A DNA stretch of 64,000 bases from Rhodospirillales bacterium (lineage in GTDB: Bacteria; Pseudomonadota; Alphaproteobacteria; Rhodospirillales; JAPHRK01): NCBI GenBank assembly GCA_026196105.1, contig JAPHRK010000031.1, positions 48,719 through 112,718 on the forward strand, read 5' to 3'. Shown here piece by piece: positions 7,561 through 39,491 of this stretch; position 1 is the stretch's first letter; the number at the start of each line of letters is the position of its first letter. Below the pieces are notes generated by a model that was not told the DNA's origin, ran no database searches, and saw only the letters and a list, made by a program, of their open reading frames with translations. The position numbers were made by a program, and so were the translations under genes.

Positions 7561-8208
7561 TTAGGTCCAAGGTTGGGCAATCCCTTCAGTTTCAAAGGCG
7601 CCAATAACTGCAGGATTAACTTCCATTTGCCTGATAAAAGCATCAAGATTAGAGAAACTCCGAGGTTTGTTCTCAATTAGGCGACACCAGCGACAAAGCA
7701 TGAAAAGGTAAAAATCAAGGAGGCTTAGCTTTTCCCCGAGCATATAAGGCCCACTGGTCCCCATGGCTTCGTCAACAATTGTCAACATTTCTCCAAGGCG
7801 TTCCGCTGCTGCAGCCTTCACATTGGCAGCGGCTTCTTCAGAGCCATCAGCCGTATAACGGTCTGGATAATAAAACATCAGAACTTCAGTCTGAATTGTA
7901 TTGGTAAAATACATCAACCACCGATAAAGCACGGCCCTCTTTTCGGTATTGAGAGCGGGAGCAAGCTCTGCTTCCGGGTGTTTGTCCGCAAGATAAAGAC
8001 AAATAGCCGCCGTTTCAGGCAAGGTAAAGTCACCATCTACTAAAACCGGAATACGACCGGCTGGATTTAGCTTTAAATATTCTGGTGATTTGTGGGCATT
8101 GCTAGCACGGTCAACCAAAATCAGTTCATAATCCACACCGATAGCCTTAAGCATCATATGTGGAGTTAGGTTGGCATTTCCTGGCGAATAATGGAGTTTA
8201 TACATCAA
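7561..8208 (-). CDS. Glutathione S-transferase family protein
   Basis: MYKLHYSPGNANLTPHMMLKAIGVDYELILVDR...YLKLNPAGRIPVLVDGDFTLPETAAICLYLAD. Confidence 0.92.
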   Translation of the reverse strand: MMYKLHYSPGNANLTPHMMLKAIGVDYELILVDRASNAHKSPEYLKLNPAGRIPVLVDGDFTLPETAAICLYLADKHPEAELAPALNTEKRAVLYRWLMYFTNTIQTEVLMFYYPDRYTADGSEEAAANVKAAAAERLGEMLTIVDEAMGTSGPYMLGEKLSLLDFYLFMLCRWCRLIENKPRSFSNLDAFIRQMEVNPAVIGAFETEGIAQPWT

Positions 8209-28978: not shown

Positions 28979-30058
28979 ATGAAAATTTATGTAGTTGATG
29001 ACGATCACGTCCAGCTAAATGTTACATCTTTAATTTTAGAAAGCGCCGGGCACCAAGTGAGCTCTATGGCTGGTGGCATTTTAGCTATTTCTGAAATTGA
29101 GCAACAAAAACCAGATTGTGTTGTCATCGACCTGATGATGGCAGAAATGGGGGGACTTGAACTCCTCAGCGAATTAAAGAAAAAACAGCGGCTTAAGAAC
29201 ACTAAATTCGTCATCGTCACAGGTCATAGCGATAAAGTTTGGCGCATTAAAGCGAAAGAAAAAGGGGCCGATGGCTTTATCCTAAAACCTATCAGTCAGG
29301 AGGACTTCTCGGCTAAGCTTGATGATATCGTCTCAGGAAAAACGCCTTTTGAAGTCGACATAAACAAAGCCACCATTGATCTCTACACCGCCTCAACGCC
29401 CAATGGTTGGAAAGCCTCTGTTGCCCTTGAGGAAATGGACATCCCTTATAATGTGCATACCGTTGACCTCAAAGGAGCAGAACAAAAGCAAGACTGGTTC
29501 CTTAAGATTAACCCTAATGGTCGCATCCCTGCCATTATCGACCAGGAAGCTGGTAATTTCCCCATATTTGAATCTGGCGCCATTCTGATTTACCTCGCTG
29601 AAAAAAGCGGCAAGCTCATGCCACAGGACGCCAAAGGCCGTTCAGAAGTCATTCAATGGGTGATGTTTCAAATGGGTGGATTGGGACCAATGATGGGGCA
29701 AGCCAATGTTTTCCATCGTTACTTCCCTGAGAAAATCCAACCCGCCATCGACCGCTATCAAAATGAAACCAAACGTTTGCTAACGGTGATGGATACCCAC
29801 CTCAAAGACAACTACTACCTCGCCAAAAAGTTCTCTATCGCCGACATCGCCAATTGGTGCTGGGCTAGAACCCATAAATGGTCCGGCGTCAAAATCGACG
29901 ACCTCCCTCACCTGCAACGCTGGCTAGACACCATAGCCGAGCGCCCCGCATGTCAAGCCGGTATCAAAGTACCTATAGACCTTGAAGAATTGCGAACAGG
30001 GGACGGTGAAGGAGCTAAAAAATTCGCTAAAGATGCACTGACTATGGTTCAGCGATAG
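28979..30058 (+). CDS. Response-regulator receiver domain fused to Nu-class (YghU/YfcG/Ure2-like) glutathione S-transferase
   Basis: Residues 1-120 REC (D7-D9, D51, T81, K103); from ~133 [37 protein letters not shown]...[15 protein letters not shown]; single uninterrupted ORF. Confidence 0.88.
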
Positions 30059-33216: not shown

Positions 33217-33528
33217 ATGGCAGAGGTGCCAATTACGATTGAAGCATCGCAACGCTTAAATGCCGTTGTTGCCCAGTCTCAGCAACTGGTTGCTGAAGCA
33301 CGAGAACGCAACACTAAAGCCGTAGATGCTCGTGCGGATATTGCAGAGCGTCTACGCGATACGGCGAACATTAAAAAAGCGCGGGATGATGAAGAAGAAT
33401 TCAGGCTAGAATTACTTCAAAAACAACGAATTGATGACGAAATAAGGCAGCAAAATTTAGACGCTATTGATGCAGGACGCCCTGACCGCACCCTTCCTCG
33501 TGGTTCACTGGTCGATCTCCTTGCTTAG
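33217..33528 (+). CDS. Small charged coiled-coil hypothetical protein
   Basis: MAEVPITIEASQRLNAVVAQSQQLVAEARERNTKAVDARADIAERLRD...; preceded by aaggag. Confidence 0.6.
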   Translation: MAEVPITIEASQRLNAVVAQSQQLVAEARERNTKAVDARADIAERLRDTANIKKARDDEEEFRLELLQKQRIDDEIRQQNLDAIDAGRPDRTLPRGSLVDLLA

Positions 33529-36500
33529 GTCTCCATTTCATTTGGCGTAACTGGATTTTGGTTTTCTATTGATACTTGGTAAGATTGCTCTCCTGGAGTA
33601 GCAAAAGCAACCTCAGACCACTCAAGCTCATTGCCGTCTTCAGTCGTCATAGTTCCTGATTGAGTGACTGTATTCCCACCAACGACAACATTCTCTGCCT
33701 GAGGGTTTAGATTGATTGAAGTGATCCCAAAATCAGATAGATTTTTTATCTCGCCCGTATCTGTTATGCCGTCTGTATTGGCATCTTGCCATATTCTGAG
33801 GGAATCATAGATCTCATCTTGAGCATCAATTTTCCCATCAGCGTTTTGGTCGTGCATGCGTAAGACATCATAACTGGTCGAGCCTTCTTCCGCCTCTACC
33901 CCGCCCCATTGGAAATCTGGAGAAATAATCTCGTCAATGCTGTCGATTACATCATTTTCGTTAGTATCGACCACCAGCAAGCCATCATCCGCCCCGACCC
34001 AACCGGTAGCTTCTTTGGCGTCATCGCCATACATATCAAACTGAACGCCGGCATCCACACCAACCAACTCAATTCCATCACCATCTAAATCCATAACGAT
34101 TGGGTCGGTGTTCACCAAATTAATAGTCGTGCCAATCGGAGCAGACTCGGTACCAAAATCATCCCCAACTGTTAATGCGACAATCTTGCTTGCTGCGGCG
34201 TCTGTTGTACTGGTGAATGAAATACTTTGAATTGCAGTTTGATAATTGGCGATGGTGTCCACGCCGCTAATATTGAGAACACCGGTAGTTGAGTTAAAGG
34301 AAACCGTTAAGCTCCCAGGCGTTCCAACCGAAAGCACGTCGCCTGCAGCAAAGCCTCTAATCTCTATATGGGCATAAGAAAGTGTTGAAGAGTCATTATC
34401 AGCAATTGCCATGGTCCCGAATGGATTTATCGGCGTGTCGGCAACATAACAGTATTCCATGGAATTTGATGTATTGAGAAGAACTTCACTATTTTGGCCA
34501 ACGTTCGCGATGAAGACGTCATTAATACCGTCCCCGTTCAGGTCACCGATATCTGCATTTTGGTGATGCTGCGTATTTGTTGAAAAAGTTCCTGATGCAT
34601 TAACAGTAAAGGTTCCGGATCCATCATTGATCCAGTATTCTTCCTCACCATCCCAGCGTGTCGTGACAACATCAATATCGCCATCACCGTCTAAATCACC
34701 ACTGGCTGAACCCTCACGGTCAGCTCCAGCACCATAAGTTACCGCAGTGGCAAAACTAGAAGCACTTAATGGGTTTGCCGTGCCAGTGACATCACTATCA
34801 CCATTATTTAAGAAAAGTTTGTTTCCCGCATAACGGTTGGTCGTCCAAACATCCATCAACCCATCGCCATTAAAATCAGCAACTTCAACCCGATAGCTTT
34901 GAGCACCGCTCGTATCAAGAGTTCCCACTAGGGAAAAAGTACCGGCACCATCATTCTTCCATATTTCACTGGCTCCACCTCCACCACCAATGAGCATATC
35001 AAGGTCACCATCTTTGTCGAAATCACCAAACTCAGCATCTTGGTATTTTGTTCCAAGTGTTTGACCAGTGTCGGTAAAAGTGCCTGTGCCGTCGTTTGTA
35101 TAAACCTTTTTAAAGCCACCCGCTAAAACAACTAGGTCCGCATTCCCGTCATTATTGATATCTGCGACCCCGACATTGTGAGCTGCGGTGAAAGTATGTC
35201 CTGCCGTAAAGGTTCCGTCACCTTTTCCATCATTGTTGGCATCATCTCCCATATAGACAGTCCCGCTGGCGGAGACAAAGTCGATGACCCCATCATTATT
35301 GAAATCTCCGGTCGTCACATGCCCATTTACCGCAGCCACAACAGACTCCGCCCCAAAAGTTCCAAACCCGTCGTTAAGGCGGGTAACGGTTTGGGTTACG
35401 TTATTCCCTACTAGAATGGCGTCCAAATCACCATCATTGTCAATATCTGTCAGCTTCACATCCCGGTAGTTTGGTGTCGCCCCAAAATCTTGGTGGGAAG
35501 CAAAAGTGGCTGTGCTGCTTGAGCTTGTGATTTCTGGCGCAGCATGAGCAGGAACGGCTGTTGTATCAAATGAGCCATCTGAATTGAAGCGCTGTGAATG
35601 TACATCGGTATAAGTGCCGTCACTCGAGTTCCACGAAACCACAAAGTCACCATCGGAGAGAACCGTGACACTGGGTTCTTTCTGGTCGTTTGTAACGGTG
35701 GTGTTCACTCGGAATTCTGAACCCACCTTGGCACCTGCATTGTCATAAACCTGTCCATAAATACCGTAGCTGCTTACATTTCCAGAATCATCACCTTGCC
35801 CCTCCCAAACGACAACAAACCCTCCGCCGCTGAAAGCCTCAATATCAACTCCAGAATTACTTGTGCTTGACCCACCCTGAACATTGGTTGTTGTGGTATT
35901 CACAAGGAAATCAGTGCCAACAGCTGTACCGGTATTATCGATAATTCGGGCATAAACCCCGTTGGTATCTTCTGGACCCGAACCTTGCCATGCGACAATC
36001 ATATTGCCGTTGCTAAGGGCGGCGATTTTGGGGAACAGTTCACCGGTATTTTCTACCGGACTGATTTGAAACTCATCAGCCACCCAAGTGTCCAAACTAA
36101 TATCATAAACCCGACCTTTAATGCCCGTGTACCCGGTTGCGGCATCGGCCCAAACAACCATAATTTTGTCGTCCGTTGTCGACTGCGCCAGGTCCGCTCC
36201 CATTTGGTGCTGCAAGGTAATGACATTATTCACTTCAACATCTGCGACGACTTTCGTATTTGAAGAATCGAAGGTGGTAAAGAAAACGTCAGAATAGTTG
36301 GTGCTAGCCCCACCTTCATCCCGGAAAACAGCAGCAAACCCACCCCCACTAAGCGCCATAAGCTGAGGGTCTGTCTGGTTGCTGTTAGTGAAAGTATTAA
36401 TAACAAACTCGCCGCTCTCCTCAAGCCCCATGGCGCTGTAACGTTTGGCAACAACGTCATAATATTGGCCGTGAGTACCATCATAATCACCCCAGGCAAT

Positions 36501-39491
36501 AATAAAGTCCCCATCGGTAGTCCCTACAACGGCGGGAACATTTTGGCTACTACCGGTGATGGTATTAACCATAAATTCGTCACCCCGTTTAGAACCATCG
36601 GCGTTGTAGACTTGAGCAAAAACATCCCAACCAGAAGCTTGGTCTAGAGATTGCCAAGTAGTGACCCAACCACCATCTGCCAGGGCCGCTGTGCTCGACG
36701 CTGTCTGATTGTTCGCTGTATGGGTATTCACCAAAGTATCAGCAGGATTAACCGATATATTCGCCGTTGAACTCGTCGTGGCTATACCATCCGAAACGGT
36801 ATACTCAAAAGTCTCAGTTCCTAAATACCCTGGCGATGGCACATAAGTAAAATTCGTACCGTCATAATCCAACAGCCCATTAGTCAAAGCAACGGGACTA
36901 CCCCATGCGACCCCATCGGTAAACGCCTGCCCCGCGACTGATTTAAGAATTATTGTATCACCTTCAGGGTCACTGACATAAGCCAGCATTTCTGCAGGAG
37001 TGAAAACATGGGGTGTATCTACCTTGTCAGATTCATTGATAACAGTAGCAATTGGAGCTTCTTGAACCGGGGCAACATCCACAGTAACCACTTGGGTAAC
37101 AGTCCCCCCCGGGTTTCCATCACTTATTGAGATGGTGAAAGTATCGCTGCCATTATAATCAGCTGTTGGCGTATAGGTAAAATTACCAGCACTATCAATC
37201 GTCGCAGACCCGTTTGCGGGGTCACTGATCGAATATGTCAGAGGATCACCATCGGCATCTGTTGCCGTTACCTTCCCAGTTGCAACGCTGTCTTCTTTTA
37301 CCAGAAGATGAGGATTAATGGTTGGGCCTGAGATCGTACCATCATGGCTGTTTGATGATTGGTCAGTTGCTGTCCCATCACCAAAATCATAATAAAATCT
37401 CAAATTTGGATCAGAAGGCGTGACACCATTATTGTAAGACGTTGCAATCTCGGCATCTGTTAGCTTTGCATCCCAAAGAGCAATTTCATCCATGCTTCCA
37501 TCTAGTTGGTAATCATAGTTACCACTTGAATGAATTCCACCAATGCGAGGGTCTAAGTATGTATATGTTGAACCCGTCCAATGAGAGGTCGGAAGGTTTG
37601 GGACAGAGAAATCCCCATTAGCTGTACCACTAGCTTTACCATTTATATATAAGGTCGCACTGCTCCCATCAAAGGTCACGGCAACATGTGTCCATTCATT
37701 GGCAGCAACAGTGTCAGTACTATAAATATTGACACCATTCTGGGAATGGAAAACCAGTTGCCCTGGCGTTCCAATTATATTCGCATCACCTGAGTTAAGT
37801 CCGACACCGAATAGAGCCGTGGTGTTATTAAAATCTAGCTGATTAACAGTTAGAGCACTTCCGGTACCCGCTGTTGAGCCATCACCAATATCCGACAACT
37901 TTACCCAAGCTGAAATTGTCCCTGACGAGATATTGTTAAGCTGCTGCTCAGTCCCAATAATACTGTCATTCACTCCATCAAAGGCCATAACCTTTTGATC
38001 AAAGTTCGTGATCTTTGGAGGTATATTTTCAGGAAGTGGCGGCACATCAATACGCTCACCACCAATAATACGCTCACCACCAATAATCTTCCCTATATTA
38101 CCTCCGGTACCCTTACCAATATCACCACCGATTCCTCCTCCAATCTCACCACCAGTATTACCTCCAGTATTACCTCCAGTATTACCCCCAGTATTACCCC
38201 CAGACCCTCCTATTATATTGCCATTACCGTTGCCATCTCCACCGTCAACAGGCCCATCTGTTGTTGTATTGCCACCAGGGTTTGGCTGTGTCAGGCCCTC
38301 AAGGCCAACATCATTTGCAAAAGTTGAAATAGTTGATTGGGCTTCAGCTTCTGCATCACTTAATTCAGCTTCCGCTTCTGCAACTTTATCTGCAGCCGCT
38401 TGCTGTTCTTCAGGAGATAAATTTTTAGCCGCCTCAAGTTCATTTTTTGCTTCATCAACTCTTGCTTTGGCTTCGACCTTGGCAACAACTTTTTCAACAG
38501 CATTACGGAAGCCATCTGGCAAAGAATTTCCAGCATTTGGCAAGCTACTTAACGCCCCACCAAAACGGCTGCCGAGTTCATCTAAGCCAAGAGTTCTCGG
38601 AGGGGACATGCTCCCTGATGCAGCTGAAACTCCTTGGAACGGGCTATTGATAACGACAGGAGGTACATCAACACCCACAATTTGAATGGTGATTTCACCT
38701 GTCAGGATACTATTTCCACCGCCACTTCCCTTTTCGGCCAATAATACCGTATCTGTATCCCCGGTTTCTGGGTTAACGCTGACGGCTGCCGCAGTTCCAC
38801 GAATACCAATAGTGGCAATAGGGGTGGTTAGGGTCATGGCATCGGGAGAGACCTTCGCAAGTTGCCCACTCACAAATGACATAGCTCCTTTGACGAGGAA
38901 TAACCCTCCACTCCCCTCTTGGGTAGCCGGGTCATAGACCATATCGTCAATGGTCATGGCAGCGTCGCCATCAAGAGCTAAACTGCTTTCATCGGCGAAA
39001 GTGATCCCAACCGACCCTTCTTCTGAGGTCTCAATCACATCACCAGCATAAATTGGATCACCGTTATTTAGCTCAACAACAGTGCCATCAATACGTTTTG
39101 CAGTCACACTACCTTCTGCTGTCTCGACAACACCAATAGGAGAAGTGTCGGAGCCAGCCTGAGCTGTTTCAACTTGCGCATATTCACCAGGAGCACGTGG
39201 TCCCGCTAAGCGCTCGACGACCCAGCCAGGAAGTTCTCCTCCGTTGGCGAGCATAAGGTCTGGCAGAGAATCAAAATTAAAGTATCCCTTTACCAGGATC
39301 ATTGTTTCATTGTCAGGAGATAGGATGACAAGTTGGCCATCAACTAAGAGAAACTTGGCGTTTAAAATCCAATCAGCCGCTGGTAGCTCAACACCACCTT
39401 CTGTAGCGTTGACTTTAATAATTTCCTGTGGTGTCCCCTTCTGTTGAGAATTGGGACTTATGCTGTCAACCTTCTGGTTTGGTGCATTCAT
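33525..39491 (-). CDS. Giant (1988 aa) FecR/LamG/cadherin-like/FG-GAP repeat surface or type-I-secreted protein
   Basis: FecR-like domain (VTAKRIDGTVVELNNGDPIYAGDVIETSEEGSVGITFADESSLALDGDAAMTIDD), Gly-rich linker, LamG, VCBS/tandem-95-like repeats, FG-GAP DxDGDGxxD repeats, C-terminal EF-hand-like PIVMDLDGDGIELV module; no N-terminal Sec signal. Confidence 0.88.
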   Translation of the reverse strand: MNAPNQKVDSISPNSQQKGTPQEIIKVNATEGGVELPAADWILNAKFLLVDGQLVILSPDNETMILVKGYFNFDSLPDLMLANGGELPGWVVERLAGPRAPGEYAQVETAQAGSDTSPIGVVETAEGSVTAKRIDGTVVELNNGDPIYAGDVIETSEEGSVGITFADESSLALDGDAAMTIDDMVYDPATQEGSGGLFLVKGAMSFVSGQLAKVSPDAMTLTTPIATIGIRGTAAAVSVNPETGDTDTVLLAEKGSGGGNSILTGEITIQIVGVDVPPVVINSPFQGVSAASGSMSPPRTLGLDELGSRFGGALSSLPNAGNSLPDGFRNAVEKVVAKVEAKARVDEAKNELEAAKNLSPEEQQAAADKVAEAEAELSDAEAEAQSTISTFANDVGLEGLTQPNPGGNTTTDGPVDGGDGNGNGNIIGGSGGNTGGNTGGNTGGNTGGEIGGGIGGDIGKGTGGNIGKIIGGERIIGGERIDVPPLPENIPPKITNFDQKVMAFDGVNDSIIGTEQQLNNISSGTISAWVKLSDIGDGSTAGTGSALTVNQLDFNNTTALFGVGLNSGDANIIGTPGQLVFHSQNGVNIYSTDTVAANEWTHVAVTFDGSSATLYINGKASGTANGDFSVPNLPTSHWTGSTYTYLDPRIGGIHSSGNYDYQLDGSMDEIALWDAKLTDAEIATSYNNGVTPSDPNLRFYYDFGDGTATDQSSNSHDGTISGPTINPHLLVKEDSVATGKVTATDADGDPLTYSISDPANGSATIDSAGNFTYTPTADYNGSDTFTISISDGNPGGTVTQVVTVDVAPVQEAPIATVINESDKVDTPHVFTPAEMLAYVSDPEGDTIILKSVAGQAFTDGVAWGSPVALTNGLLDYDGTNFTYVPSPGYLGTETFEYTVSDGIATTSSTANISVNPADTLVNTHTANNQTASSTAALADGGWVTTWQSLDQASGWDVFAQVYNADGSKRGDEFMVNTITGSSQNVPAVVGTTDGDFIIAWGDYDGTHGQYYDVVAKRYSAMGLEESGEFVINTFTNSNQTDPQLMALSGGGFAAVFRDEGGASTNYSDVFFTTFDSSNTKVVADVEVNNVITLQHQMGADLAQSTTDDKIMVVWADAATGYTGIKGRVYDISLDTWVADEFQISPVENTGELFPKIAALSNGNMIVAWQGSGPEDTNGVYARIIDNTGTAVGTDFLVNTTTTNVQGGSSTSNSGVDIEAFSGGGFVVVWEGQGDDSGNVSSYGIYGQVYDNAGAKVGSEFRVNTTVTNDQKEPSVTVLSDGDFVVSWNSSDGTYTDVHSQRFNSDGSFDTTAVPAHAAPEITSSSSTATFASHQDFGATPNYRDVKLTDIDNDGDLDAILVGNNVTQTVTRLNDGFGTFGAESVVAAVNGHVTTGDFNNDGVIDFVSASGTVYMGDDANNDGKGDGTFTAGHTFTAAHNVGVADINNDGNADLVVLAGGFKKVYTNDGTGTFTDTGQTLGTKYQDAEFGDFDKDGDLDMLIGGGGGASEIWKNDGAGTFSLVGTLDTSGAQSYRVEVADFNGDGLMDVWTTNRYAGNKLFLNNGDSDVTGTANPLSASSFATAVTYGAGADREGSASGDLDGDGDIDVVTTRWDGEEEYWINDGSGTFTVNASGTFSTNTQHHQNADIGDLNGDGINDVFIANVGQNSEVLLNTSNSMEYCYVADTPINPFGTMAIADNDSSTLSYAHIEIRGFAAGDVLSVGTPGSLTVSFNSTTGVLNISGVDTIANYQTAIQSISFTSTTDAAASKIVALTVGDDFGTESAPIGTTINLVNTDPIVMDLDGDGIELVGVDAGVQFDMYGDDAKEATGWVGADDGLLVVDTNENDVIDSIDEIISPDFQWGGVEAEEGSTSYDVLRMHDQNADGKIDAQDEIYDSLRIWQDANTDGITDTGEIKNLSDFGITSINLNPQAENVVVGGNTVTQSGTMTTEDGNELEWSEVAFATPGEQSYQVSIENQNPVTPNEMET
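38050..38085. repeat. 18-bp tandem repeat x2 within giant gene
   Basis: atacgctcaccaccaata repeated exactly. Confidence 0.9.
38152..38199. repeat. 12-bp tandem repeat x4 within giant gene (encodes GGNT repeats)
   Basis: ccagtattacc[t/c] repeated four times. Confidence 0.95.

Follow-up and report, generated by a model that had tools for sequence, protein, structure and literature searches.

A single gene in the window, the 64,000-nucleotide stretch of DNA that was analysed (C59:48719-112718), encodes a receiver (REC) domain joined to a Nu-class glutathione S-transferase (GST). The gene, on the forward strand, is one uninterrupted frame of 359 codons. Pfam assigned Response_reg (PF00072) to residues 3-114 (E 1.2e-24), GST_N to residues 132-208 (E 9.5e-16) and GST_C to residues 246-323 (E 1.2e-9), with all three matches exceeding the curated cut-offs. 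A preliminary description of this DNA had proposed the single frame and the domain identities, and both are borne out. Chance does not account for the matches, as 80 loci encode GSTs that share 57-75% identity with the GST half, and 17 single-domain response regulators match the REC half at 36-44% identity. Judged by its sequence, the open reading frame is a real gene and probably functional. The gene and its features are as follows.

28979..30058, + strand: REC-GST fusion gene; single ORF of 359 aa with an ATG start, stop codon included (Pfam)
28979..29344, + strand: REC (receiver) domain, residues 1-122 (PF00072, conserved columns, model pLDDT about 95)
28997..29005, + strand: acidic triad D7-D8-D9 of the REC active site (sequence position)
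29129..29131, + strand: phospho-acceptor Asp D51, invariant across relatives
29285..29287, + strand: K103 of the REC active site, in LKP (sequence position)
29345..29371, + strand: linker, residues 123-131 (PFEVDINKA); coil in the model, at lower confidence and without secondary structure
29372..30055, + strand: Nu-class GST domain, residues 132-359 (Pfam, orthologue alignment, fold match; T132 lies at the orthologues' start Met)
29396..29407, + strand: TPNG motif, residues 140-143 (alignment; PMC3995644 section 22; PMC5892560)
29570..29575, + strand: E198-S199, glutathione-binding dipeptide (position; PMC3995644 section 22)
29753..29755, + strand: R259, probable counterpart of the Arg that reaches the second glutathione from the other subunit (conserved column; the exact equivalence is inferred)

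The residues that mark PF00072, an acidic pair or triad, a phospho-acceptor Asp, a Thr/Ser and a Lys, are found in the fusion as D7-D9, D51, T81 and K103. Each of these, and the TPNG motif of the GST half, is at the position given in the preliminary description; F100 is also present. All 21 columns conserved among the 17 single-domain relatives are retained (21/21). Like the fusion's REC, the single-domain response regulators of the same order have the same length and all the conserved REC residues, but they end after REC, whereas in the fusion a GST then follows. The lineage is made up mostly of such regulators from this order together with proteins joining REC to a metallo-beta-lactamase fold, and in a tree the fusion REC sits at an unresolved fork.

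Genes adjoining the related single-domain regulators encode class III cyclase, PAS-GGDEF, SpoIIE-like or hybrid kinase proteins. The gene next to the best-matching REC relative (in G002) was considered as a kinase and rejected, as it proved to encode a PAS-GGDEF protein. The fusion's own genome encodes a class III cyclase with 70% identity to the regulators' neighbour elsewhere (L197 8337-10670; G000:C57:44339-45712). No REC gene is beside this cyclase on C57; perhaps the regulator has moved or been lost, and the locus does not point to a kinase. Upstream of the fusion itself, the gene for a GntR/aminotransferase (MocR-type) regulator ends 72 bases before the start, and none of the neighbours examined could be identified as a histidine kinase. 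At another locus, L181 (1468-2409), the sequence reads as one protein with a cNMP-binding (CRP-like) domain and, after it, a REC from this lineage.

For the GST half, the earlier assignment to the Nu class holds. The nearest PDB entries by both sequence and fold are solved Nu-class structures of Pseudomonas aeruginosa PA1623 (6tah, 6tum, 4eci), some of them glutathione-bound and with 62-64% identity over the GST domain. The fusion has in common with the Nu-class (Main.2) enzymes PA1623, YfcG, YghU and NaGSTNu the fold, the Thr-Pro-Asn site and the Gln, Glu, Ser and Arg residues for glutathione. The motif of the class (PMC3995644 section 22) is represented by T140, N142, Q169, E198 and S199, and by R259 through its alignment with RY of YfcG-like proteins. 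T140 and N142 are the counterparts of the Thr and Asn that activate the glutathione thiol (PMC3995644 section 22; PMC5892560). At about 90 columns that are over 90% conserved in 80 standalone orthologues, the fusion departs at only one (V228). As the preliminary description had supposed, both halves thus look competent, with nearly every conserved residue kept in each. Orthology to YghU or YfcG was rejected: the scores against their NCBIfam equivalogs, NF008731 (167.1 bits, cut-off 325) and NF010579 (161.2 bits, cut-off 332), are below the curated cut-offs, though the class is the same. The orthologues at 57-75% identity come from records labelled Alpha-, Gamma- and Deltaproteobacteria and Myxococcales, and some of these GST genes are close to genes that we read as coding for an amidohydrolase, an acyl-CoA dehydrogenase or other catabolic-looking proteins.

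Nu-class sites hold two GSH or one GSSG (PMC3995644, PMC5892560). In the Nu-class dimer each subunit's second glutathione is contacted by an Arg from its partner (PMC5892560). Both disulfide-bond reduction and removal of glutathione from conjugates are known in vitro for these enzymes (PMC3995644, PMC5892560). By analogy the chemistry of the fusion's GST could be disulfide-bond reduction or that of a glutathione-lyase, the sequence being compatible with either; the GSH/GSSG disulfide reductase of the preliminary description is thus one candidate activity. The genome has 119 REC matches and 11 GST_N matches; among the latter, the fusion's is the only one whose frame exceeds 267 aa. One match (C59:56705-56893) belongs to a second, standalone GST within the window (7561-8208, - strand). 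The fusion seems to be the sole close copy of either half in its genome, since the next closest GST is 53% identical and the next best REC match 30%.

To place the joint we aligned the fusion with the 17 single-domain regulators and with four GSTs that stand alone. The regulators end by about residue 122, so that the REC half spans their full length, and the standalone GSTs begin at 132/133. T132 aligns with the GST start Met (T-I-D-L-Y versus M-I-D-L-Y), and its codon is ACC, two bases from ATG. The standalone Nu-class relatives seen lack an N-terminal REC; the fusion lacks the GST start Met. Between codons 57 and 153 of the fusion frame there is no in-frame ATG, GTG or TTG, and codon 153 is already past the TPNG motif. 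The whole GST can therefore be translated only as part of the fusion. As read from this alignment, two genes have been joined cleanly, each over its whole length.

The preliminary description had held that orthologues split in all close relatives would point to a sequencing or assembly error merging two genes. Every orthologue seen of each half is indeed split, which is what an artefact would predict, but an artefact is not thereby shown, as the GST begins with a Thr codon that differs from ATG at two positions, and no stop separates the halves. Such an error would have to lose both a stop and a start, with no other in-frame start nearby. The joint also coincides exactly with the domain ends, the gene is interior to a long contig (C59:77697), and the GC3 of each half is within the range of the neighbouring genes. 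We regard an erroneous merger of two genes at the REC/GST boundary as very unlikely.

In an AlphaFold2 model the protein forms two well-folded domains with a coil between them. The pLDDT is about 95 for REC and mostly 70-92 for GST, lower toward the C-terminus. The pTM of the fusion is 0.63, and the orientation of REC relative to GST is therefore uncertain. With a flexible linker and this modest pTM, no fixed interface between the domains is predicted.

Proteins joining REC to a metabolic enzyme are known and have a narrow phyletic distribution (PMC5847659 section 14). With REC and an enzyme domain on one polypeptide, the fusion has the architecture of a response regulator with an enzymatic output. 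We suggest that a response regulator of the single-domain type gained a whole Nu-class GST at its C-terminus when two complete genes fused. The GST part would be a dimeric glutathione-dependent enzyme, acting through the Thr-Pro-Asn site in disulfide-bond reduction or deglutathionylation. A histidine kinase encoded elsewhere would phosphorylate D51, and GST activity would change in response. Dimerisation, glutathione chemistry and REC phosphorylation are taken from what is typical of the two families, and control of one domain by the other, directly or by recruitment, is a plausible inference. The two domains in one frame, their conserved active sites, a joint lying precisely between two gene lengths, the lost GST start, the well-folded domains of the model and the precedent of REC attached to metabolic enzymes favour this account as a whole, to which we give nearly, though not quite, an even chance. 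Counting against it, the fusion was found in a single genome, so no selection can be demonstrated, no histidine kinase was identified beside the gene, and no fixed domain interface is predicted. GSTs, moreover, are as a rule constitutive dimers, so dimerisation of REC need not alter the GST. The boldest proposal, that phosphorylated REC directly switches or localises the Nu-class GST and so makes glutathione chemistry the output of a two-component system, is a tentative one that we hold to be possible but somewhat doubtful.

REC might instead serve as a docking tag, with the phosphorylated domain binding a partner and placing the GST at a site or in a complex while catalysis is unchanged. Standalone receivers have no output domain and must work through other proteins; the fusion's REC belongs to a lineage of such receivers, and the linker is flexible in the model. 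No partner was identified, however, and we consider docking rather unlikely. Less likely again is a neutral fusion confined to one lineage, in which the GST works as before with REC as a passenger, or vice versa. Its presence in only one of the genomes searched and the standalone state of all the GST orthologues seen would fit such an event, but the active sites of the two halves are intact, and no further close copy of either half seems to be present in the genome. The logic might also be reversed, the GST being a sensor whose binding of GSH or GSSG alters phosphorylation or docking of REC. The capacity of Nu-class sites for either ligand (PMC3995644, PMC5892560) is consistent with this, and yeast Ure2p, in which a GST fold is used in regulation, is among the structural relatives. 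The catalytic residues, however, are conserved with those of the standalone enzymes, as expected of a working enzyme, and we consider a sensor very unlikely.

Should phosphorylation indeed control the GST, a signal would act on glutathione conjugates or on the redox state of thiols with no transcriptional step between. Little is known of what Nu-class GSTs do physiologically (PMC5892560). That one of them is naturally fused to a phosphorylation switch suggests a tie between their activity and signalling in at least one organism, and this one protein allows the tie to be put to the test.

To determine how common the architecture is, we searched 60 relatives at E <= 0.001 (the 60 listed include no other genome from the same family), 317 genomes of the order, 385 of the class, 399 of the phylum, 369 of another class and 15 from an order where close GST orthologues abound. 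Across more than 1,000 genomes from these overlapping sets, the 80 named loci, plasmids and viral contigs there was no second REC-GST fusion, at E-value limits that were mostly strict and could have passed over one that has diverged strongly, and in a named collection that may leave out records very close to this genome. REC was likewise absent from the GST orthologues at the 80 named loci. Adjacent unfused REC and GST genes were close same-strand neighbours only at L132, which was rejected as an unfused precursor because its GST comes ahead of a CheY-like gene from another lineage.

The earlier claim that REC rarely has a redox enzyme as its output stands in part: the fusion does not recur in the genomes searched, but a redox precedent is already published, as REC with thioredoxin reductase was reported in metagenomes (PMC5847659 section 14). 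The fusion resembles the REC-enzyme response regulators of that report in composition and narrow distribution, and differs in its output, a GST. No description of a GST as a REC output was found in the literature searched. What appears to be new is the GST as the partner enzyme; the joining of REC to a metabolic enzyme is already known.

A more widespread REC-enzyme fusion is that with a metallo-beta-lactamase fold, found in proteins of the same order in which REC is related to the fusion's and the enzyme differs. Several genomes of the order encode such a hydrolase (L177 251-1480, L178, L184 and L188), its fold being read from a sequence motif, FWGVRGTLPVPG. The fusion's own genome probably also encodes one (C76:199864; L199 4850-6079). 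Elsewhere in the window, 33525-39491 (- strand) encodes a repeat-rich and probably secreted protein of 1988 aa, with FG-GAP-, LamG- and cadherin-like stretches recognised by eye.
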